DNA of 25,562 nucleotides. Origin: a virus. Positions 8,945-24,330 of the stretch are shown here, piece after piece. The stretch spans positions 1 through 25,562 of IMG/VR virus record IMGVR_UViG_3300021420_000114. The stretch is one strand, 5' to 3'. The notes below the pieces were generated by a model, which saw only the letters and a program-made list of their open reading frames with translations, was not told where the DNA came from and did no database searches. Both the position numbers and the translations under genes were made by a program. Within the stretch, counting starts at the first letter, position 1, and each line of letters starts with the position of its first letter.

Positions 8945-9030
8945 CTACGATCAAATTTTATTTCTTCAATCCGTGCCGTCGAAAATCTCGGCTAAGTCAT
9001 TGACGAACACAATTGAGCAACAAGTCGCGT

Positions 9031-9059
9031 TCGACATCAATCTTGAAACATGCTATATT
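9031..9059 (+). promoter_or_regulatory. strong sigma70 promoter with extended -10
   Basis: TCGACA (9031-9036), exactly 17 bases, TATATT (9054-9059), with TG one base before the -10 (TGC-TATATT). Five of six matches in each hexamer make it the best host-type promoter in the window. The surrounding gap (8945-9125) is distinctly AT-richer than the genes. Confidence 0.65.
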
Positions 9060-9065
9060 AGTTTC

Positions 9066-9111
9066 ACGATCAAACAAAGATCGTTCGGCGGGTGACGCCG
9101 AGTTGTTTGAT
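9066..9111 (+). promoter_or_regulatory. structured leader with two competing hairpins
   Basis: Long stem: ATCAAACAA (9069-9077) pairs with TTGTTTGAT (9103-9111), enclosing CGGCG-GGTGA-CGCCG (9086-9100). Short stem: ACGATC (9066-9071) pairs with GATCGT (9079-9084). The two share bases and exclude each other. The long stem ends five bases before the GGAG that serves ATG 9126, so switching could alter translation. The +1 predicted from the promoter (about 9066) would place both stems in the mRNA leader. Confidence 0.5.
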
Positions 9112-9125
9112 AAGTGGAGAGCATG

Positions 9126-9710
9126 ATGACAACATACCGTGACATCAACGCGGTGTGGCCCACCCCCTATCCGGTGCCCACATCGCGTGAGGCGATCATC
9201 GGAGCGAAGCGGCTCATCCGCCGAGCACACCGACTCGCCATTGACGACGGCGCAGTTCCGAAATTCGCGAAGCTGCGACGGCGCAAGTTCAAGATCACGT
9301 CGGGGAATAGATACACTGAAATCCGATCCGGCGTGTGGTACGTGAACCCGAACCAAAACGGACATTGGGGCTGGCACCAAATCGTGCATGGCATATCCCA
9401 TTGGGCGCAGCGGCACTACTGGCCGCAAGCGGACGGGCACGGCGCGCTGCACGCGTGGCTTGAGAAAGAACTTGCGGAATATGCGATCAACAACTTCCTC
9501 GCCGGGCAACTCGGAAAAGCCACGCCCCCAAAGGTAGTCGATAAGATCGCAGTGCGTGCGGCGGCAGTTGCCGGGCGCATCAAGGCATGGGAAGCAAAAC
9601 GTCGGCGAGCGGACACAGCACTCCGCAAGCTGCGCAGACAGGAGCGGTACTATGAAAGACGAGTTGGACATCCCGGACTTCTTGGACCTTCGTATCCCGG
9701 AGAACCTTGA
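9126..9710 (+). CDS. His-rich putative metal-binding protein, 194 aa
   Basis: ATG 9126 is chosen over ATG 9123 because it stands at a better distance from GGAG (9116-9119). The core is WYVNPNQNGHWGWHQIVHGISHWAQRHYW, followed by HGALHAWLEKELAEYAINN. H84-x3-H88-x3-H92 and H105-x3-H109-x3-E113 would make a helical metal site similar to zinc peptidases. The first element is HQxxH, with Gln where a catalytic Glu would stand, so peptidase activity is doubtful. From memory, related phage proteins share this His pattern and are unannotated. The C-terminal tail is Arg-rich. Confidence 0.55.
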   Translation: MTTYRDINAVWPTPYPVPTSREAIIGAKRLIRRAHRLAIDDGAVPKFAKLRRRKFKITSGNRYTEIRSGVWYVNPNQNGHWGWHQIVHGISHWAQRHYWPQADGHGALHAWLEKELAEYAINNFLAGQLGKATPPKVVDKIAVRAAAVAGRIKAWEAKRRRADTALRKLRRQERYYERRVGHPGLLGPSYPGEP

Positions 9711-10005
9711 ACGATGGAAGCAGGCGCGCAAGGACTGGCGACCGTCCGGTCGCGCCGCGCGGGAAGCCGCGCCGAAGGTGGAGCGCGACTTCGAGGGCAA
9801 CGCACTACCGCGTAACATGGATGACTCGACGCGAGCCTTCCTCGCGTCGATTGAGAAGGCGCAACGCGACAAGGCCAAGGAAGCCGACGCCAAGAAAGAC
9901 GAACGCTTCCGCGTGCTCGCCGTGCAGCGGGCGGAGAAGGCCGCGATCAAGAAGGCCGCAAAGGAAGCATCCAAGGCATCCCGAGCGGCGTTTACCAAAG
10001 GCTAA
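9652..10005 (+). CDS. Lys/Ala-rich coiled-coil protein, 117 aa
   Basis: ATG 9652 is seven bases after GGAG, inside the previous gene (59-base overlap). Acidic start (MKDELDIPDFLDLRIPENLERWKQ) and a long Lys/Ala helix (EKAQRDKAKEADAKKDERFRVLAVQRAEKAAIKKAAKEASKASRA) that would form a coiled coil or bind nucleic acid. The opening is MKDEL, not the MKDAKGHGS tag. Its stop codon lies in the G(C)TAACC box of the next promoter. Confidence 0.6.
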   Translation: MKDELDIPDFLDLRIPENLERWKQARKDWRPSGRAAREAAPKVERDFEGNALPRNMDDSTRAFLASIEKAQRDKAKEADAKKDERFRVLAVQRAEKAAIKKAAKEASKASRAAFTKG

Positions 10006-10052
10006 CCACGACCGCCGATGCGGGTTGACCCGCTCGGCGGCCGTGCTATGTA
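10001..10052 (+). promoter_or_regulatory. GTTAACC-type promoter (GCTAACC variant) for the structured RNA
   Basis: GCTAACC (10001-10007), 17 bases, TTGACC (10025-10030), 16 bases, TATGTA (10047-10052), with TG before the -10 (TGC). Spacing is identical to the copies at 2760 and 14619. It reads into the 540-base region that has no protein gene, with a start predicted near 10059. Confidence 0.5.
10012..10040 (+). terminator. 12-bp hairpin overlapping the -35
   Basis: CCGCCGA (10012-10018) and GCGGG (10020-10024) pair with CCCGC (10029-10033) and TCGGCGG (10034-10040) around a TTGA loop, with one bulged T. It follows the stop of the Lys/Ala-rich gene by six bases, so it may end that transcript. 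The loop is the TTGA of the -35 hexamer, so it could also be a cruciform or operator site. No T-run follows. Confidence 0.45.
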
Positions 10053-10088
10053 TGCCCGGTCGAGAGCTTGTAGGGCTCCTGACTTTAG

Positions 10089-10250
10089 GCCGATGTAGCT
10101 CAACTGGCGTGGGCGCTTGCGGGGGTAATTGCCCGGGGGCGTTCCAGAGCGTCCCGACAAGAACCGAGTTGACAAAAGCGCGTGGCATGTCACGCCAGTC
10201 GAAAGTAGTAAGGTCGGATCAAGATACGGGTTCGAGTCCCGTCATTGGCA
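10089..10250 (+). ncRNA. tRNA-like domain with the anticodon arm replaced
   Basis: Acceptor strands GCCGATG (10089-10095) and CATTGGC (10243-10249) pair over 7 bp with one G-T wobble. TA follows, then a D-stem GCTC/GGGC (10098-10101, 10111-10114) around AACTGGCGT. The T-arm is canonical: ACGGG-TTCGAGT-CCCGT (10226-10242), then discriminator A. A normal anticodon arm plus variable loop would need about 22 bases; here 110 bases (10116-10225) carry several hairpins, closed by CTTG/CAAG. CCA is not encoded (GCC follows). It may be a tRNA mimic that attracts tRNA-processing enzymes, or a tRNA with an insertion. Confidence 0.45.
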
Positions 10251-10546
10251 GCCTACAAGGTAGCGGCGCAAATGCCGAGCAACTAACACGAGGCGTCTGT
10301 GCACGCCTACTCGACAACGACAGCTTCTCGTGGGGGGCTTTGCAAGCCACTCGCCGATCCGCAAGATGCAGCATAGCGGTCGGAGAAGATGGGAGTACGG
10401 GGAACGCGCGTTCCTTCGTCGCGAGCGCAAGCTCTAAGGCTCCCCGCACGAAAAGCTGTTGATCGAAAGCCGGGCGGCGCAAGACACCGGCACGTCAGTC
10501 GCGCTAACAAGCGAATATCGGCAAAGCGCCGACGCGGGAAAACGTG

Positions 10547-10600
10547 CCGGGGCGTAGCGTGGCAGGCGCAAGCCGAACGACCACTGTTGCGCCCGGTTTC
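10547..10600 (+). terminator. closing stem at the 3' end of the structured RNA
   Basis: CCGGGGCG (10547-10554) pairs with CGCCCGG (10590-10596) over 7 bp with one bulge, followed by TTTC. It encloses the GGC-GCAA-GCC hairpin. It may be the last domain of the RNA or a weak intrinsic terminator before the gene at 10616. Confidence 0.4.
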
Positions 10601-10615
10601 AAAATGGAGAGTGTC

Positions 10616-10810
10616 GTGCCTGATTGGTTGGCGTATCAAGGAACGATCTACGTCTCGCCGTTCGGTGAGACGATCCTGCGCTATACGAGCGGCACCCGCC
10701 GCTTGGGCTACGAGCGTATGCGGCAGCTTTTCTTCTCCCCGTTCGAGTCCGGTTGCGTCAATGAAGGCGGCTGGCGACGCGTGCGGAGGTTCCTTCATGG
10801 CGCGGCCTGA
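10616..10810 (+). CDS. hypothetical protein, 64 aa
   Basis: GTG 10616 lies six bases after GGAG (10606-10609); the in-frame ATG 10604 overlaps that ribosome site and is less likely. The protein MPDWLAYQGTIYVSPFGETILRYTSGTRRLGYERMRQLFF is beta-rich with basic residues and ends in RRVRRFLHGAA. No family recognised. Confidence 0.5.
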   Translation: MPDWLAYQGTIYVSPFGETILRYTSGTRRLGYERMRQLFFSPFESGCVNEGGWRRVRRFLHGAA

Positions 10811-14691: not shown

Positions 14692-15018
14692 ATGAAGGAT
14701 GCAAAGGGCCATGGCAGCAATCCGCGCAACGGGGACACCCCCGTTGTGCGGCTCGATACTGTCGGAAGCCCGAACCGTAAGACCGGCTACAAGGGCAGCG
14801 CCAAGCAAGAGACGCTCGCCATGCAGCGGGTTTCGGACGAGGGCCGCAACCCGACATCCACGATCACGGATCGGATGGCGGCGATGACCCTCGGGCAAGG
14901 TCATCCGAAGTCGGGCGGCGTACCGTTCGGCTACGGCTTCGAGGCAGCGAAGATGAATTTAGATCGGGGCCGCAATGTTGCGCTCCCGCGCGGTGCAGAG
15001 AACCGGAGGAAGTCGTGA
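14692..15018 (+). CDS. tagged cassette protein 1 (MKDAKGHGSN), 108 aa
   Basis: First of nine proteins that open with M(A)KDA(K/Q)GHGS. After the tag (residues 1-10) the body has RMAAMTLGQGHPKSGGVPFGYGFEAAKMNLDRGRNVALP. The HPKSGGVP element returns as HPKSGQVP in the gene at 18952. No catalytic residues evident; probably a small structural or docking protein. GGAG lies eight bases before ATG. It overlaps the next GTG start (GTGA). Confidence 0.65.
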   Translation: MKDAKGHGSNPRNGDTPVVRLDTVGSPNRKTGYKGSAKQETLAMQRVSDEGRNPTSTITDRMAAMTLGQGHPKSGGVPFGYGFEAAKMNLDRGRNVALPRGAENRRKS

Positions 15019-15263
15019 AGGACGCACAGGGCCACGGTAGCAACAGTCGCGGCGACGCATACTCGACGAGTCGTCCCGCAGGTTCGGGCTTGCCGTTTCA
15101 CGTATCGCAGAATTTCGGCGCGGTCTCGCGTATGAGACCTGACCGCGACTTTAAGACAGACGCGGATCGCACGGTTTCCGATTTGCGTTCGCGCATGAGC
15201 AACACCGGGCCGGGCCACTCGGTTGGACTGTTGCAAGGGATCAAAAATCTTTTGGGAGGCTGA
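15015..15263 (+). CDS. tagged cassette protein 2 (MKDAQGHGSN), 82 aa
   Basis: GTG start preceded by GGAGGA (15005-15010). The tag has Gln for Lys at position 5. The body RDFKTDADRTVSDLRSRMSNTGPGHSVGLLQGIKNLLGG is largely helical with a hydrophobic glycine-bearing end (VGLLQGIKNLLGG) that could interact with a membrane or a partner. Shortest of the tagged set. Confidence 0.65.
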   Translation: MKDAQGHGSNSRGDAYSTSRPAGSGLPFHVSQNFGAVSRMRPDRDFKTDADRTVSDLRSRMSNTGPGHSVGLLQGIKNLLGG

Positions 15264-15264
15264 T

Positions 15265-15708
15265 ATGAAGGATGCAAAGGGCCACGGCTCAGACGCGAGA
15301 GGCGCGCACGCGCAAGGCGTCGAGCAAGTCGGTCAACAGCCTTTGGCCCCGCCGGAGAGCGCAGCGTCACGCGAGCTTCGTTTGTTCGCTGACAACGACG
15401 CCAATCTTCATCGCCAGTCAGAGACGCCGATCCGGCAGAACCTCGGTCAGAAGATGGACAAGGGCGTCTACGACCCCAACAAGGCGCAGACGCTTTGGAA
15501 ATATCACGCCGACCGCGCGGCCGAGTCTTACGGCAAGCAGATGGGCGGCAACGGTAAGGCCATGTTCTCCCCGGACGTGCGTCGCGAAGCGGCGCAGCAT
15601 TGGGAGAGCGAGACCCGTGGTTCGCTCAAGAGTGGCGAGTACGGCAATCCATACCCGGCGCATCAAACAAACCTGCGCGCCGCATGGGACAAGAAGCACG
15701 GGAGCTAA
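15265..15708 (+). CDS. tagged cassette protein 3 (MKDAKGHGSD) with HAQGVEQVG, 147 aa
   Basis: ATG 15265 follows GGGAGG by five bases. Tag residues 1-10; second motif HAQGVEQVG at 15-23. The body (NLGQKMDKGVYDPNKAQTLWKYHADRAAESYGKQM, then MFSPDVRREAAQHWESETRGSL) matches, as I recall it, a small helical module (L...KG.YD...A..LW.Y..D.AA..Y) found in phage and plasmid proteins. Function of that module is unknown. Confidence 0.65.
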   Translation: MKDAKGHGSDARGAHAQGVEQVGQQPLAPPESAASRELRLFADNDANLHRQSETPIRQNLGQKMDKGVYDPNKAQTLWKYHADRAAESYGKQMGGNGKAMFSPDVRREAAQHWESETRGSLKSGEYGNPYPAHQTNLRAAWDKKHGS

Positions 15709-15711
15709 GTC

Positions 15712-16329
15712 ATGAAGGACGCAAAGGGACACGGTAGCGACAAGCGCGGCGGCGACTACGCGCCGAGCGCGTCGAGCAAGACGCCCGTCTACAACCCGAA
15801 GGTTCAAGGCGGCAAGCGCATGTTTGGCCGCCAGCCGACCGCTTCGGAAGCGGCGGCGAATTCGGCGAACGTAAAGGCGTTCTCCGGTTTTGTTCGAGGC
15901 TTGCAGCCGATGACGGCGGAGCAACAGAAAGACCTGTTGGGTCGAACCACTCCGCTCGACAGTGGCGCGCATTCGAGTGGCGTACAGTCGGTCGGTCATC
16001 CCGAGCCCGCACCGAACTTTCGCCTGAATAGCTACACGCACGAAATCGTGTCGCCGTCCGGCGATGTCGCCGCGCGCATGAAGCTCGGCAAGAATAGCGG
16101 CCTCGCTGTCGATTATCCGGCGGGTGCCCGGGCTGCGGGGAAGGGATCGTATGGTCCTCAAATCTCGCGCAGCGGCGGCCCGTCAATCCACGACGCGGTG
16201 TCGATGCCGGACTATCGTGCGACGAAGGCGGGCAGCAACAGTTTTCCGGCAGAGCAGATCGGCGGCCCGCTCCACTACCTCACCGGCAATGATTTTGCCG
16301 GGCACACGGTCCGGCGAGTAAAGGGGTAA
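15712..16329 (+). CDS. tagged cassette protein 4 (MKDAKGHGSD), 205 aa
   Basis: Longest tagged protein. Tag at 1-10, basic Gly/Pro linker to about residue 40, a helix (NVKAFSGFVRGLQPMTAEQQKDLLG), then HSSGVQSVG at residues 87-95, and a C-terminal beta-like domain (RLNSYTHEIVSPSGDVAARMKLGKNSGLAVDYP, then GGPLHYLTGNDFAGHTVRRVKG). The internal place of HSSGVQSVG shows that this motif can be separated from the tag. No family recognised. Confidence 0.65.
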   Translation: MKDAKGHGSDKRGGDYAPSASSKTPVYNPKVQGGKRMFGRQPTASEAAANSANVKAFSGFVRGLQPMTAEQQKDLLGRTTPLDSGAHSSGVQSVGHPEPAPNFRLNSYTHEIVSPSGDVAARMKLGKNSGLAVDYPAGARAAGKGSYGPQISRSGGPSIHDAVSMPDYRATKAGSNSFPAEQIGGPLHYLTGNDFAGHTVRRVKG

Positions 16330-16332
16330 ACT

Positions 16333-16740
16333 ATGGCTAAGGACGCCAAGGGTCACGGCTCCGAAAAGCGTGGCGGGGCGAGCGCGGACGATCTTGTCAA
16401 GCTCGCTTATTCGACGGCTCACCATTTCGGACCCGACGCAAAGGGCGTGGGGCTGGCGCTTCAATCCGCCGCCGCACAATCAGCGAAGGAAATGGGTGTC
16501 ACCCCGATCAGTAACGGTAAGGGTGGTGCCGCGCACCAAGCTGGCGTAAACATGGTCGGCGGCCAAAAGCAGATCACGATCTTTCACCAAGACGGCGAGT
16601 ATGCCGTTCCGATCCCGGGCAACAAAGGTCATTCGTTTACTGACGACAAGGTAGATGCTGAAAACACGGCACGCACGATGCACGGTCAGAACATTGTAAT
16701 CAAGCATCGCGCGAAGTCGTGGGGACCGGAAATGGATTGA
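16333..16740 (+). CDS. tagged cassette protein 5 (MAKDAKGHGSE) with HQAGVNMVG, 135 aa
   Basis: Tag has an extra Ala after Met. The body has a helix (DLVKLAYSTAHHFG), HQAGVNMVG at residues 68-76, and the C-terminal QKQITIFHQDGEYAVPIPGNKGHSFTDDKVDAENTARTMHGQNIVIKHR, which looks like a small mixed domain. AAGGGG precedes the ATG. No known enzyme motif seen. Confidence 0.65.
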   Translation: MAKDAKGHGSEKRGGASADDLVKLAYSTAHHFGPDAKGVGLALQSAAAQSAKEMGVTPISNGKGGAAHQAGVNMVGGQKQITIFHQDGEYAVPIPGNKGHSFTDDKVDAENTARTMHGQNIVIKHRAKSWGPEMD

Positions 16741-16748
16741 GGTAAGTC

Positions 16749-17153
16749 ATGGCAAAAGATGCAAAGGGTCACGGCTCCGACTCGCGCGGCGGCAGCTATC
16801 CCAACATCGACAAGAATTTGCGCGGGCCGGGCAAGCACTCCGGCTATAGCGCCGCAGGCGATGTTTGGCATATCCAGAAATCGAACGGCCCCAAGAGCGA
16901 TTGGTACACGGGCGTCCGGCAAAGCAACGGCGACGTTATCAGCGGCAAGGGGCTTGGCGCAATCTCTCAGCGACTTCAAGCTGACTCCGACGCATGGACT
17001 AAGCAGGCTCTCAGTAGCCCGGCAGTCGGTGTCGCGGCTCAGCACGGCATTGATACGTCGCACCTTAGCGGACGACAGGATATGTGGGGTCGTACTGACG
17101 CCGATCTTGAAAAAGACTACGGTGGTCCGGTTCGACATTTTCAAAAGAGATAA
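16749..17153 (+). CDS. tagged cassette protein 6 (MAKDAKGHGSD), 134 aa
   Basis: Tag with the extra Ala, then DSRGGSYPNIDKNLRGPGK. The middle (AAGDVWHIQKSNGPKSDWYTGVRQSNGDVISGKGLGAISQRLQ) alternates strands with a Trp-containing turn and ends in a helix, consistent with a small alpha/beta domain. It lacks a HxxGVxxVG motif. GAGGTAAG precedes the start. Function unknown. Confidence 0.65.
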   Translation: MAKDAKGHGSDSRGGSYPNIDKNLRGPGKHSGYSAAGDVWHIQKSNGPKSDWYTGVRQSNGDVISGKGLGAISQRLQADSDAWTKQALSSPAVGVAAQHGIDTSHLSGRQDMWGRTDADLEKDYGGPVRHFQKR

Positions 17154-17156
17154 ATC

Positions 17157-17615
17157 ATGAAGGACGCAAAGGGCCACGGCAGCGATGCCCATGGTTCGCA
17201 TTCCGGCGGCGTGGACAAGATCGGTCAGCCGATCAAGTTGCACCCGAAGGTGCTCGACGCGATCCGCAATCAGCCAAACGGTTTCTCGGTGACGCTCGAA
17301 GGAAAGCAGCCGACATCCGGTTACATGGTTGCGAACCCGGGTCACTCCGAAATTCACAACCCGGATGACATCGCGAGCGAACGCGGACCCGGCATCATTC
17401 AGAACTACGTGATGGCGCACGCGGGCGCTCTCATGGAGCCCGGCGCTCACATCGGTGGGTGGACAGACCCCGACTCGAAGAAGACCTATCTCGATGTGTC
17501 GCATAACATCCCGGGACGCTTCGCTGCGATCCAAGCGGGCATCGACCGAAACCAAAAAGCGATCTATGACGTGAAGCGCGGCAAGGACATCAAGACAGGC
17601 GGCACAGGCGAATGA
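17157..17615 (+). CDS. tagged cassette protein 7 (MKDAKGHGSD) with MuF-associated-like domain, 152 aa
   Basis: Tag at 1-10 and HSGGVDKIG at 15-23. The remaining domain runs GFSVTLEGKQPTSGYMVANPG, then GALMEPGAHIGGWTDPDSKKTYLDVSHNIP and NQKAIYDVKRGKDIKTGGTGE. From memory, the GW.DP..GKTYLDVS...A......NQ.AI.D...........TGGTG pattern is a recurring domain in phage proteins, often at the C-terminus of MuF-type head proteins. This is the best link of the cassette to virion-associated proteins. Its biochemical role is unknown. Confidence 0.7.
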   Translation: MKDAKGHGSDAHGSHSGGVDKIGQPIKLHPKVLDAIRNQPNGFSVTLEGKQPTSGYMVANPGHSEIHNPDDIASERGPGIIQNYVMAHAGALMEPGAHIGGWTDPDSKKTYLDVSHNIPGRFAAIQAGIDRNQKAIYDVKRGKDIKTGGTGE

Positions 17616-18019
17616 CCAAATTCCGATCCCACGGCCCCGATGTGATGCCGACTCCGGCGAAGAAGCCGGAGCCGAAGCCCGGCGTATTGAACGAGCACCA
17701 CATCCCGATCTACGATCACAAGGGCCGTATGCGCGGGCACGTCGGCCCGCTGGCGACGGCTTCGACCGTTGCACGTTTCACCGGCCAGCATGGCTCGAAG
17801 CTCGGCAAGAAGGAAGGCAAGACTGCGTGGCTCAGTCCGCCGCCCCCTCCGCCGCCGAAGCCGCAGATTGATCCGACCGCCGTCGCCGTCGCCAAGGCGA
17901 CGCCAAAGCCGTCGAACGAAAGTCATAAGGTCGAGATTTCGGTCAAGCAGGCGATGGGGAGTGCCTCGAAGAAAAAGCCTGACAAGCCGGAGACGCGCGC
18001 TCGCCCGAAGCGGGGGTAA
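17612..18019 (+). CDS. untagged cassette member with polyproline run, 135 aa
   Basis: ATGA overlap start. It begins MTKFRSHGPDVMP, which keeps only SHG of the tag. A beta-hairpin-like part (NEHHIPIYDHKGRMRGHVGPLATASTVARFTG) leads to a seven-proline run (SPPPPPPPKPQID) and a Lys-rich tail (KKKPDKPETRARPKRG). The only gene between the first and ninth tagged genes without the tag. It may be a degenerate member or a specific partner. Confidence 0.6.
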   Translation: MTKFRSHGPDVMPTPAKKPEPKPGVLNEHHIPIYDHKGRMRGHVGPLATASTVARFTGQHGSKLGKKEGKTAWLSPPPPPPPKPQIDPTAVAVAKATPKPSNESHKVEISVKQAMGSASKKKPDKPETRARPKRG

Positions 18020-18022
18020 GCC

Positions 18023-18472
18023 ATGAAGGATGCTAAGGGGCATGGCAGTGATGCTCACTCGACCGGCGTACAGCAAGTCGGTCGCACTCCGCTTACGCAA
18101 ACAGACATCACCGAACGCCCGACCACTCCATTCATCGCAAAGATGCTCAAGGGAACGCTGCGAGGCGAGCGATACCCTAGTGAGATAAAACCAGACGAAC
18201 ATTTCTATCATGGGTCCGCGCAACAATTTGCTCCGGGTGCATTGATTGAGTCGGGTCACCCGGGGAACTTTGTTCGGTCGATGAGCCATGTCTACATGAC
18301 CACGCAGCCCGAAAGGTCGGATCAATACAAGGGCGCTCGGGGTTATGGCAATCACGTCTATGAGGTAAAGCCAACCGGGCCATTCGGACATCGCCGCGAC
18401 GCACGAGACGCGGAGTGGGCTTCGGAGTTTCCGTTGCGGGTGGTTCGTGAAGTCGAAAGCAAAAAGTCATGA
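18023..18472 (+). CDS. tagged ADP-ribosyltransferase-like protein (Arr family)
   Basis: Tag at 1-10, HSTGVQQVG at 12-20, linker, then a C-terminal domain of about 90 residues closely following rifampin ADP-ribosyltransferase (Arr). Matching elements are HFYHGSAQQFAPGALIESGHPGNF (60-83; FYHG with H63), HVYMTTQPERSDQY (89-102), HVYEVKPTGPF (111-121) and EFPLRVVREV (135-144). Arr enzymes transfer ADP-ribose from NAD+ to the rifamycin hydroxyl. The Arr-typical FYHG, VYxT and VxPTGPF are all kept, so the fold is likely intact. In a phage, a protein or nucleic-acid target is as likely as the drug. T4 Alt is a known ADP-ribosyltransferase that is packaged and injected. Fusion to the tag suggests delivery. 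Confidence 0.75.
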   Translation: MKDAKGHGSDAHSTGVQQVGRTPLTQTDITERPTTPFIAKMLKGTLRGERYPSEIKPDEHFYHGSAQQFAPGALIESGHPGNFVRSMSHVYMTTQPERSDQYKGARGYGNHVYEVKPTGPFGHRRDARDAEWASEFPLRVVREVESKKS

Positions 18473-18891
18473 AGGATGCGAAGGGCCACGGCTCCAACAC
18501 ACGCGGCGGCATTGATCCTCGCATCGCTGGCGCGATGAAGCGAGTGGCGGCTGCGCATCAAACGGGCGTACAGGCTGCGGCCGTCAAGAGTACCATGAAG
18601 GCTCTCGTAGATAGCGCGAAGGCGCGCGGGGTCAATCTCGATATCGAAGATTTGGGTACGCCGCTTCAATGGCACCTCGCCTATATCGAGCGGCAGGGTG
18701 GTGCGCCTGGAACTGGCGCGGCCGTTATCAAAGATATCCACGCCGCCGCCGACAAACTCGGCGCGACTGTGCAGGTCGAGCCCATGGGTAACAGTAAGGG
18801 GCTGCATACCTATTACAAAAATCTCGGCTATCGAGACAACGGCGAGCGTGGCGAAGAAGGCGAACCGCACATGGTCCGCAAGCCGCACTAA
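18469..18891 (+). CDS. tagged GNAT-like protein
   Basis: ATGA overlap start. Tag at 1-10. The motif HQTGVQAAA (30-38) is a degenerate HxxGVxxVG. The body resembles the second half of a GCN5-type acetyltransferase: strand plus acetyl-CoA loop (WHLAYIERQGGAPGTGAAVIKDIHAAADKLG, about 68-98) and the closing element (LHTYYKNLGYRDNG, 112-125). The first three strands are short or missing, so activity is uncertain. Possible targets and role are unknown; as with the Arr-like neighbour, a modification enzyme carrying the tag suits an effector. Confidence 0.6.
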   Translation: MKDAKGHGSNTRGGIDPRIAGAMKRVAAAHQTGVQAAAVKSTMKALVDSAKARGVNLDIEDLGTPLQWHLAYIERQGGAPGTGAAVIKDIHAAADKLGATVQVEPMGNSKGLHTYYKNLGYRDNGERGEEGEPHMVRKPH

Positions 18892-21855: not shown

Positions 21856-21950
21856 TGACACGCACTCAGATGAAATGCCCGCGCGGATGGCCGCGCACGT
21901 CGGAATGGTCCGGCGCGTTGAGAACGGAGACTTGTCATGGGACAAGATGA
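21855..21950 (+). CDS. possible mini-protein, 31 aa
   Basis: Starts on the last base of the previous stop (TGATG), with GGGAGG four bases before. MTRTQMKCPRGWPRTSEWSG then ALRTETCHGTR. It overlaps the TerS start by 14 bases. It could equally be a translated leader that couples the previous gene to TerS. Low confidence. Confidence 0.35.
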   Translation: MTRTQMKCPRGWPRTSEWSGALRTETCHGTR

Positions 21951-22659
21951 GCAGCCGCCCATCAATGGCGGCGACAAGAAGCCAATTCCCGGACGCGAGC
22001 TATCGCGTAACCGCGCTTCCTACATCACCGAGACGCCTCGCGGCGGCGTGGTGGGGAAGAAGAACAACCCCGAACGTCTCACCAAATTTCTCGACCGGCT
22101 CGTCCAATTCCCGGAAGTCACCAAGGCGTGTCTGTTCGTCGGCATGAGCTACACGACTCTGCGCTACTACCTCGCCAAGAGCGAGACCGGCGCGCCCGGC
22201 GACGGCTTCGACCTGACCTACGGCGAGGAGACAAAGCGATTTCACCTCCACTATGCCGACGCGCTCGACGCGGGCATTCAGATGGTGGAGGACGCGTACA
22301 CGCAGCGCGCTCTCAAGGGCTACTACGAAGTCCTCTCCGACAAGGGTCGCGTGATCTATCAGATTGATCCCGAGCTTGCGGGCTTGGGCTTCACCGGGCC
22401 GGATGCCTATCTTCTCGACGAAGACGGCAAGCCGATCCCCGAGCGCATTCAGCACCAAGACCCCGAAGTCATGCTCGCAGTTCTGCGCGCGTTCCGTCGT
22501 GATCGTTGGGGCTCGAAGGAAACGCTCGATGTCAGTGTGCGCGGCGGCGTCATGGTCGTCGGCGTGCGCGCAAAGAGTTCGGAGCTAAACGAGCAGAGCG
22601 AAGCGAAGGCGTTGTCCGAGCCGCTCGACGTTGAATTCCGCGAAGTCGAGGAGGAATAA
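21937..22659 (+). CDS. terminase small subunit
   Basis: 240 residues directly upstream of the large terminase, with no gap. The N-terminal third has a helix-turn-helix (LTKFLDRLVQFPEVTKACLFVGMSYTTLRYYLAKS, about 48-82), followed by a helical region (FHLHYADALDAGIQMVEDAYTQRALKGYYE) typical of DNA-recognising small subunits. The C-terminal part has EVMLAVLRAFRRDRWGSKETLDVSVRGGVMVVGVR, possibly the large-subunit contact. Small terminases recognise the packaging site and regulate the motor. Assignment rests on the fold pattern and position. Confidence 0.8.
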   Translation: MGQDEQPPINGGDKKPIPGRELSRNRASYITETPRGGVVGKKNNPERLTKFLDRLVQFPEVTKACLFVGMSYTTLRYYLAKSETGAPGDGFDLTYGEETKRFHLHYADALDAGIQMVEDAYTQRALKGYYEVLSDKGRVIYQIDPELAGLGFTGPDAYLLDEDGKPIPERIQHQDPEVMLAVLRAFRRDRWGSKETLDVSVRGGVMVVGVRAKSSELNEQSEAKALSEPLDVEFREVEEE

Positions 22660-24330
22660 ATGTTTCTCCCCGAGGAAGACCGCTCGCCGCAAGTCCCCCG
22701 CCAGATCATCAAGGCATTCGTGAAAGACGGTAACGAGTATTTCCCGATTGTCCTTGATGATTATGGCCGCGAGAAGCAGGTCGTGTGGGCTCCGCTTCCA
22801 TGGTCACAGCAATACTTTCTCAGCGCCCCGGAGTTCGAGGCGCTGTACGAAGGAACGCGCGGCCCGGGCAAGACGCTCGCGCTCTTGATGGATTTCTGTC
22901 AAGAAGTCGGCAAGGGCTACGGCGCTGAATGGAAGGGCATGATCATTCGGCGCACGTACCCCGAACTGGCGAACATCATCACGGAAAGTAAAAAGTGGAT
23001 CAGGCGCATGTGGCCTGACGCGTTCTACAACGAGATTAAATACTTCTGGCAATTCCCCACGGGTGAACTTCTCTATTTCCGGCCGGTCGCGACCGTCGAT
23101 GACTCGGACTCGCACCTCGGCACCAACTACACATGGCTCGGGTGGGAGGAGTTGACGCTGTGGCCCGACGACAAGGCGTTCAAGCGAATGCAAGCCGTCG
23201 TTCGATCCACGTTGAAAGGAATTCCTCTGCGCGTGCGCGCGACGACAAACTCCTACGGCAAGGGGCACAATTGGGTGCAGGCGCGCTACGGCCTGATCAA
23301 TTGGCCCATCAAGGTCGGCGAGGACCCGAAGGCGACGCACCCGTGTCTCAAGGATATTTGGAAGATCATGGGGCCGCTCATCACCGGGACGGTCGATGAG
23401 AACGGCATCCCCGAGCGCCCGCGCCGCGCGTATCACGGATCGCTGCGCGAGAACATCATCCTGTTGCGCGTGCAGCCGCAGTACATCAATCAGCTTTACA
23501 CGTCGGCTCGTAACCAAGCCGAGCTTGACTCGTGGCTCTACGGATTGTGGGACATCACCGCAGGCGGCATGTTCGACGATATTTGGGCCACGCACCGCAA
23601 GTGCATTGTGGTCGGCGATTTCGAGGTGCCGCTGAATTGGAATATATATCGCGCATATGACCATGGCTCGACGAAGCCGTGGTCGTGCGGTTGGTACGCT
23701 GTGAGCAACGGCGAAGACTTGACGTTCAATGACGGCACGGTCATGTCTACGATGAAGGGCGACTATTTCCGTTGCGGTGAGATTTACGGCAACCTGAAAA
23801 ACTCGTCGGACCCGAATACTGGCCGCCGTCAGCTTATCCCGGACATCAAGAAAGAAATCATCGAATACGAGCTTGCACGCGGCTGGCGCGATCCAAACAC
23901 CGGCAAGTCGCGCGTTCGGCGCGGACCCGCCGATACGAGCATCTTCGCCGAGGAGGATGGTCGGCCGTCTGTAGCGAGCGACTTCGAGACGCCCGTCACC
24001 ATCAACGGCCATCGCTGGCGCGGCATCATTTGGGAGCGCGCTGACAAGCGCCCCGGTTCCCGCGAACAAGGATGGGAGCAAGCGCGCAAGCGGCTTAAGG
24101 CCACCAAGCGACCGCCGGGCGGCGTGCGCGAGGAGAAGGGCCTTTTCATTGTCGGCGAGCGTTGCCCGCACTGGATACGGACTGTCCCGTCTCTGCCTCG
24201 CGACGACGGCGGCGGCGGTCGAGTAGCTCACCTTGACGACGTTGACACCGACTCGGAAGACCACATCGGCGACGAAATGCGGTACATGCTGCGCTACGAT
24301 GTGGGAACGATGAAATCGTACCGTGTTTGA
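22660..24330 (+). CDS. terminase large subunit
   Basis: 556-residue packaging ATPase and nuclease. Walker A is EGTRGPGKTLALLMDF at about 64-79, with K71/T72 (the G-x-R-G-x-GKT form common in phage terminases). Walker B is YTWLGWEELTLW at 157-168, with catalytic E near 163-164. The nuclease domain begins with IYRAYDHGSTKPW (D334) and ends with VAHLDDVDTDSEDHIGDEMRYMLRY, the late acidic cluster that coordinates metal. ATPase and nuclease signatures are complete, so it is likely functional. It starts right after TerS and is followed by a promoter and the portal. Confidence 0.9.
   Translation: MFLPEEDRSPQVPRQIIKAFVKDGNEYFPIVLDDYGREKQVVWAPLPWSQQYFLSAPEFEALYEGTRGPGKTLALLMDFCQEVGKGYGAEWKGMIIRRTYPELANIITESKKWIRRMWPDAFYNEIKYFWQFPTGELLYFRPVATVDDSDSHLGTNYTWLGWEELTLWPDDKAFKRMQAVVRSTLKGIPLRVRATTNSYGKGHNWVQARYGLINWPIKVGEDPKATHPCLKDIWKIMGPLITGTVDENGIPERPRRAYHGSLRENIILLRVQPQYINQLYTSARNQAELDSWLYGLWDITAGGMFDDIWATHRKCIVVGDFEVPLNWNIYRAYDHGSTKPWSCGWYAVSNGEDLTFNDGTVMSTMKGDYFRCGEIYGNLKNSSDPNTGRRQLIPDIKKEIIEYELARGWRDPNTGKSRVRRGPADTSIFAEEDGRPSVASDFETPVTINGHRWRGIIWERADKRPGSREQGWEQARKRLKATKRPPGGVREEKGLFIVGERCPHWIRTVPSLPRDDGGGGRVAHLDDVDTDSEDHIGDEMRYMLRYDVGTMKSYRV

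Follow-up and report, generated by a model that had tools for sequence, protein, structure and literature searches.

The window, a virus record of 25,562 bases, carries terminase genes at 21937-24330 and, at 10006-10603, an intergenic region of some 600 nt with no convincing gene, flanked by ORFs of 117 aa (9652-10005) and 68 aa (10604-10810), as an earlier note on this DNA had described when it reported a long non-coding stretch. The stable structure claimed there is borne out by the fold energy of 10050-10620, which was lower than in any dinucleotide shuffle (z -3.5, 0/100 shuffles as good; opposite strand z -2.3), and the two GCAA tetraloop hairpins are present at 10427 (4-bp stem) and 10568 (3-bp stem). 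Elsewhere in the window, about nine ORFs follow one another in tandem at 14692-18891; each carries M(A)KDAKGHGS at or near its start and varies after it, which suggests paralogues that have an N-terminal tag in common. Within the intergenic stretch the conserved unit spans 10059-10315 (257 nt), and its elements and surroundings are as follows.

10012-10040 (+), strong upstream hairpin, placed by sequence, containing the -35 box
10025-10030 and 10047-10052 (+), weak promoter-like boxes TTGACC and TATGTA with a 16-nt spacer; predicted start near 10059
10059-10064 (+), 5' strand of P1, GTCGAG, pairing with CTCGAC at 10310-10315 (6/6); 4/6 pairs covary in 32 homologues
10065-10066 (+), 2-nt joint AG between P1 and P2, invariant
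10067-10074 (+), 5' strand of P2, CTTGTAGG, pairing with CCTACAAG at 10252-10259 (8/8 across 177 nt); 6/8 pairs covary
10089-10095 (+), 5' strand of the acceptor-like stem, GCCGATG, pairing with CATTGGC at 10243-10249
10098-10114 (+), D-arm-like hairpin with GG in the loop; 4-bp stem by inspection of the sequence
10115-10225 (+), expanded region of about 110 nt in place of the anticodon arm
10159-10212 (+), module common to L019 and L023, with a hairpin at 10180-10195
10226-10242 (+), T-arm ACGGG-TTCGAGT-CCCGT; TTCRA loop in 24/40 distinct homologues
10260-10263 (+), joint J2/7, GTAG; class form G[T/G/A]AG
10264-10277 (+), variable hairpin P7, CGGCG-CAAA-TGCCG; perfect 3-7 bp stem in 40/40 homologues, with many different sequences
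10278-10291 (+), joint J7/8, AGCAACTAACACGA; no other unpaired strand of the class is as conserved
10292-10307 (+), hairpin P8, GGCGT-CTGTGC-ACGCC; GGCG/CGCC nearly invariant, fifth pair T-A, C-G or an A/G apposition
10308-10309 (+), invariant TA before the 3' strand of P1
10310-10315 (+), 3' strand of P1, CTCGAC, closing the RNA
10318-10461 (+), second folded stretch, closed by CGACAGCTT/AAGCTGTTG; fold only, no homologue found
about 10466-10600 (+), third folded stretch, closed by AAGCCGGGC/GCCCGGTTT; fold only, no homologue found

The phage promoter that had been placed in front of this RNA is weak: TTGACC and TATGTA are positioned correctly for a start near P1, but a consensus scan returned no promoter and the -35 box is buried in the strong hairpin. 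Better TTGACA boxes lie upstream of P1 in the relatives L002, L004 and L021.

A BLAST search of the region against phage records matched only 10222-10312, in 52 phages (Erwinia, Serratia, Pectobacterium, Salmonella and others), where the matching segment is mostly unannotated or entered under 'tRNA-OTHER/Undet' within tRNA clusters. We then searched with the shared block GAGCAAnTAACACGAGGCG...CGCCTACTC as a pattern, against IMG/VR and subsequently against genomes, which yielded 18 and then 37 IMG/VR contigs and four genome matches, with Limoniibacter (L053) the sole clear member among the latter. The remaining genome matches (L051, L052, L054) and one viral match (L048) lack the rest of the architecture, scored 15-23 bits and were not counted. 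BLAST with the relatives as queries added Klebsiella RaK2 and K64-1, Pectobacterium CBB, Serratia 2050HW/Moabite, the T5-like phages KEY and AAS21, and Chaseviridae EaPF9, FKP3, Kashira, Yersinia P778 and Aeromonas phiA050; a match on a Bradyrhizobium plasmid, just before a Mu-type transposase gene, was discarded (core missing, chance-level E 0.1), and a search for relatives via the upstream protein (9114-9710) found none.

Alignment of 40 distinct sequences revealed a single plan, consisting of P1, AG, an 8-pair P2, an insert of 57-192 nt, P2', G[TGA]AG, P7, AG[CAT]AAN-TAACACGA, P8 with GGCG/CGCC, TA and P1', over a class length of 130-270 nt. P1 ends inwardly in GAG/CTC (or GTG/CAC) and extends outwards with changing sequence, P2 is exactly 8 bp whatever the length of the insert, and the almost invariant strand between P7 and P8 is AGnAAnUAACACGA. 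In six of the 40 (L040, L044, L063, L067, L071, L072) the segment GTAG-P7-AG is replaced by AAG-AACC-loop-GGTT-AC. The window itself carries P1 with the GAG/CTC end, the AG joint, an 8-bp P2 abutting G[TGA]AG, AGnAAnUAACACGA, the GGCG/CGCC hairpin, UA and P1'.

The covariation check that the earlier note had called for was run on a composite alignment of 32 distinct sequences, in which P1, P2 and the 3' domain were joined and the inserts left out, and P1 and P2 were found to covary; P7 covaries across the 40 homologues. In P1, P2 and P8 of these homologues, 99.3% of cells were paired, compared with 77.8% in column shuffles and 31-55% in slid-partner controls, 110 cells carried double-sided changes and the covariation score was 0.543 versus 0.115; these figures are to be read knowing that P2 was placed wherever it matched best downstream of the GAG.AG anchor, and that the shuffles ignore the tree. 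The slid controls, together with the many different sequences of P2 and P7, make chance pairing untenable. A pattern lacking P8 matched 27 contigs, of which only three were new loci, so the invariance of P8 is not merely a search artefact. The core varies in length without preserving a reading frame, and neither P7 nor insert lengths are multiples of three, which argues against coding. Folding of the single window sequence recovered P1, P2 and the T-stem and missed the acceptor stem, P7 and P8 (ensemble probability about 0.02); in the window these three elements are accordingly assigned by comparison with homologues only. Taken as aligned, P1, P2, P7 and P8 are predicted to form a four-way junction. 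We are close to certain that 10059-10315 is a conserved structured RNA of an undescribed class.

The single RNA of about 540 nt proposed in the earlier note does not hold up, as comparative support stops at 10315, where P1 closes, and 10318-10603 is separate; the conserved unit is half as long as claimed. The downstream half folds more stably than expected (z -3.1), and BLAST, patterns and direct comparison found no homologue of 10318-10603. These folds may be co-transcribed partners of the 10059-10315 RNA, or they may be unrelated to it. The phage of L019 also has long noncoding, apparently structured stretches on either side of its copy (L056:1660-1945, 2380-2520), whose resemblance to 10318-10603 was at shuffle level.

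The tRNA-like 5' domain noted earlier is real and belongs to the class, in which it sits in the P2 loop. In the window the 7-bp acceptor stem (10089-10095/10243-10249) lies flush with the 5-bp T-stem of the T-arm at 10226-10242, which carries a 7-nt TTCRANN loop, and a possible D-arm is found at 10098-10114. Two unpaired bases (N, G) follow the acceptor, then P2', with no CCA. In an independent parse of the inserts, 25 of 40 distinct homologues have an acceptor that measures 7 bp or more and directly abuts the T-arm, and the short forms (L014, L017, L024, L042, L053) keep the acceptor-like stem, a small side arm and the T-arm-like hairpin. A substantial minority (L014, L016, L017, L021, L024, L042) lacks the canonical T-loop or the full acceptor, so the mimicry may be dispensable or may be replaced by something that we do not see. 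No full cloverleaf with a 7-nt anticodon loop was found in the window: ARAGORN called no tRNA anywhere in its 25,562 bases, and the Rfam tRNA model scored the domain at 17.5 bits against a cut-off of 29. An intron-containing tRNA was considered and rejected, since removal of the insert restores no normal anticodon arm and ARAGORN was negative. About half of the roughly 110-nt replacement of the anticodon arm is a conserved module of about 54 nt (GAACCRAGTNGRCAMAARCGCGTGG...CACGCYAGYCGAAMGTASTAAG) in the position of the anticodon loop, which occurs in only three phages, those of the window, L019 and L023.

A stack of acceptor and T-arm is the minimal substrate of bacterial RNase P, and this geometry, together with the invariant, unpaired, purine-rich strand, raises the prospect of a processing or catalytic element in which the junction acts as a ribozyme, or RNase P or RNase Z matures or splits the RNA with the tRNA-like part as substrate. 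We consider this improbable, because P2 would form a leader-trailer helix beside the acceptor that should impede cleavage, and a conserved cleavage-site signature was not seen.

Carriers of the class are found in Ounavirinae, Markadamsvirinae, Stephanstirmvirinae, Vequintavirinae, Chaseviridae and jumbo phages (RaK2, CBB, 2050HW), besides one alphaproteobacterial genome and many IMG/VR contigs, and the location is often a tRNA cluster. Among 398 sampled Pseudomonadota genomes the class model matched only the genome already known, which argues for a phage RNA and not a host RNA. Some phages have two copies (L041 and L060 on one contig; L045 at 9001-9080 and 9370-9457). In CBB-like jumbo phages (L069, L011, L046) the RNA adjoins a gene called tRNA-Pyl with a CTA anticodon, probably an amber suppressor. 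Public records (L004, L063-L067, L199) label the RNA variously as tRNA-OTHER, tRNA-Undet, tRNA-Phe, tRNA-Gln or short hypothetical proteins.

Occurrence in tRNA clusters of very different phages, with the top half of a tRNA kept and no decoding role, would also suit a counter-defence decoy, in which the tRNA-like domain lures a tRNA-attacking host nuclease or toxin and the stable junction shields the decoy from decay; tRNAs are indeed attacked by many bacterial defences (PMC12851939). Most such nucleases, however, cleave at the anticodon loop or at the CCA tail, both missing from this RNA, and the junction strand is more conserved than the tRNA mimic, so that we regard a decoy as unlikely.

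We instead favor, with a probability of roughly 0.38, a trans-acting non-coding phage RNA that combines a junction platform with a tRNA mimic docking on the translation or tRNA-handling machinery of the host. The joints AG, GUAG, AGnAAnUAACACGA and UA would build a compact, conserved platform at the four-way junction, and the domain in the P2 loop retains the acceptor/T-stem stack and T-loop of the tRNA elbow, its decoding end being lost or replaced and CCA absent. A host component that binds tRNA, most likely the ribosome or translation apparatus, would recognize the elbow and the acceptor stack while the junction presents its conserved strand to that component, and the phage would thereby occupy or retune host machinery during infection. 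The RNA would be made from its own promoter or within tRNA arrays. The near-invariance of the joints across unrelated phage families and hosts suggests a conserved host target, and the distribution over phages and prophages, the tRNA arrays, the apparent own promoters of several relatives and the host-independent core likewise point to an RNA that acts in trans on such a target. From the tRNA elbow we infer that translation or tRNA handling is the likeliest target; since it is the junction, rather than the tRNA-like part, that is most conserved, the key partner could nonetheless be unrelated to tRNA.

A looser core, UAAAACGAGGCG, widens the class to lambdoid late leaders and to molecules with a tRNA-like domain outside the junction. 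Searched as TAAAACGAGGCG-N-CGCCTA, it occurs in at least 120 IMG/VR contigs (looser members L079-L198), and the class model gave 66 matches at E<=0.1 in 80 looser-core loci; the hybrids L182 and L156 connect the window group with the looser group. With the class model, the IME10 late leader (L061:1355-1600), from a lambdoid phage outside the training set, scored 47 bits (E 3e-10), and the IME10 type is present in 113 of 5,426 E. coli genomes at >=80% of the query. The looser layout runs from a Leu-type D-arm GGCGGAAnnGGTAGACGC through a linker TAATCAG, a P1 of about 8 bp, the junction and P1' to a T-arm and acceptor, such that in many looser members an outer tRNA-like domain has P1 as its elongated anticodon stem; this tmRNA-like arrangement also speaks for the favored reading. 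In this layout all eight P1 pairs covary and 97.9% of cells are paired versus 57% when shuffled, in an alignment from which P8 loop letters were trimmed. P1 reached 8 bp or more in 27% of 92 looser members versus 3% with permuted partners, the picks per member being greedy and partly due to chance. By a strict automatic test, 10 of the 92 looser members carry the outer domain, compared with 2 of 455 control places, and none of the 49 window-group members does; some of the acceptor picks are coincidental, and inspection identified further cases. It is conceivable, although we hold it to be doubtful, that a single junction (UAAMACGA-GGCG...CGCC-UA-P1) underlies a large superfamily of phage RNAs, previously undescribed and including that of the window. 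Its tRNA-like domain would lie either in P2 or, in lambdoid and other phages, outside, as in tmRNA-like molecules used on the host ribosome. As a separate observation, the Rfam sRNA mcrA (RF03010) lies at L098:8509-8559, just downstream of a looser-group member.

Looser members occur commonly in the late leaders of lambdoid phages, which separate Q from the lysis genes; such a placement would fit a cis-acting leader controlling downstream genes by antitermination or attenuation. We give this only a slim chance, because most members lie among tRNA genes or varied neighbours, the RNA is closed on itself by P1 and there is no conserved downstream gene.

Several looser members hold a nearly complete tRNA inside the junction beside the core (L161:2092-2161, L107:5376-5484 and, on the minus strand immediately upstream of the core, L190). 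These near-complete tRNAs in the P2 loop, along with one in L012 that is called tRNA-Val, and the tRNAs at times held by GOLLD linkers (PMC12286853), would agree with a GOLLD-like scaffold, perhaps multimeric, that protects or delivers an embedded tRNA. Such a carrier is distinctly unlikely in our estimation, given that a usable anticodon arm is missing from most embedded domains, that the window group has no CCA and ARAGORN finds no window tRNA, and that the class, at 130-270 nt, is far below the size of cage-forming RNAs.

Under the favored reading of a trans-acting tRNA mimic, the RNA is probably an undescribed viral tool acting on the protein-making machinery of the host, missed because it was annotated as tRNA-OTHER, as a spurious small protein or as nothing. 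Its core is nearly unchanged across unrelated phage families, whether on 25-kb contigs, in 380-kb jumbo phages or in E. coli prophages, and must therefore be worth keeping. The alignment is a ready annotation model, and some carriers infect ordinary E. coli. If the RNA is a tRNA mimic, it offers a direct test of how phages turn RNA, and not protein, on host translation or on defences that target tRNAs.

The earlier note had offered two classifications, a divergent member of GOLLD or ROOL, or a possible new class of structured phage RNA. Covariance-model searches with Rfam 15 gave no family at gathering score in the window and, at E<=10 on 9990-10700, three sub-threshold, chance-level matches, none of them GOLLD or ROOL; the relatives' loci returned only ordinary tRNAs and the one unrelated sRNA near L098. 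GOLLD and ROOL are thus excluded as families, and the new class is strongly supported by the homologues, the covariation and the absence of an Rfam family. Neither the core motif in a relevant context nor a description of the RNA or its architecture was found in the CC-licensed PubMed Central literature, subscription journals lying outside that scope.

A group I intron, considered because AAGATA resembles an S element, was rejected, as Rfam gave no match. The acceptor, the T-arm and, in some members, a D-arm with GG are shared with tRNA; the class differs in having no usable anticodon arm, no CCA in the window and a position embedded in P2. tmRNA likewise joins a tRNA-like acceptor and T-arm to a large structured insert, which in the looser relatives replaces the anticodon arm, whereas the tRNA-like part of the window is internal rather than terminal, no tag reading frame was recognized, and neither Rfam nor ARAGORN called a tmRNA. 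The T4 species 1 and 2 RNAs (rnaC, rnaD) are also stable small RNAs in a phage tRNA cluster, and RNA C has a GGTTCGA T-arm; homology was rejected, as the core motif is in neither gene, with one chance-level 3-mismatch match outside both, and the class model did not match the T4 locus (L055). ROOL is a phage RNA that, like the class, is often close to tRNA islands (PMC12286853), and differs in that the window and its relatives have no Rfam match to it, the class is much smaller and no pseudoknotted ROOL core is seen. GOLLD, at about 800 nt compared with the 257-nt conserved unit, has other conserved sequences, but it too is a structured RNA of phages and prophages that lies near tRNA arrays, has a conserved 3' part and a variable 5' part, and in its linkers sometimes holds tRNAs (PMC12286853), as do the looser relatives L161, L190 and L107.
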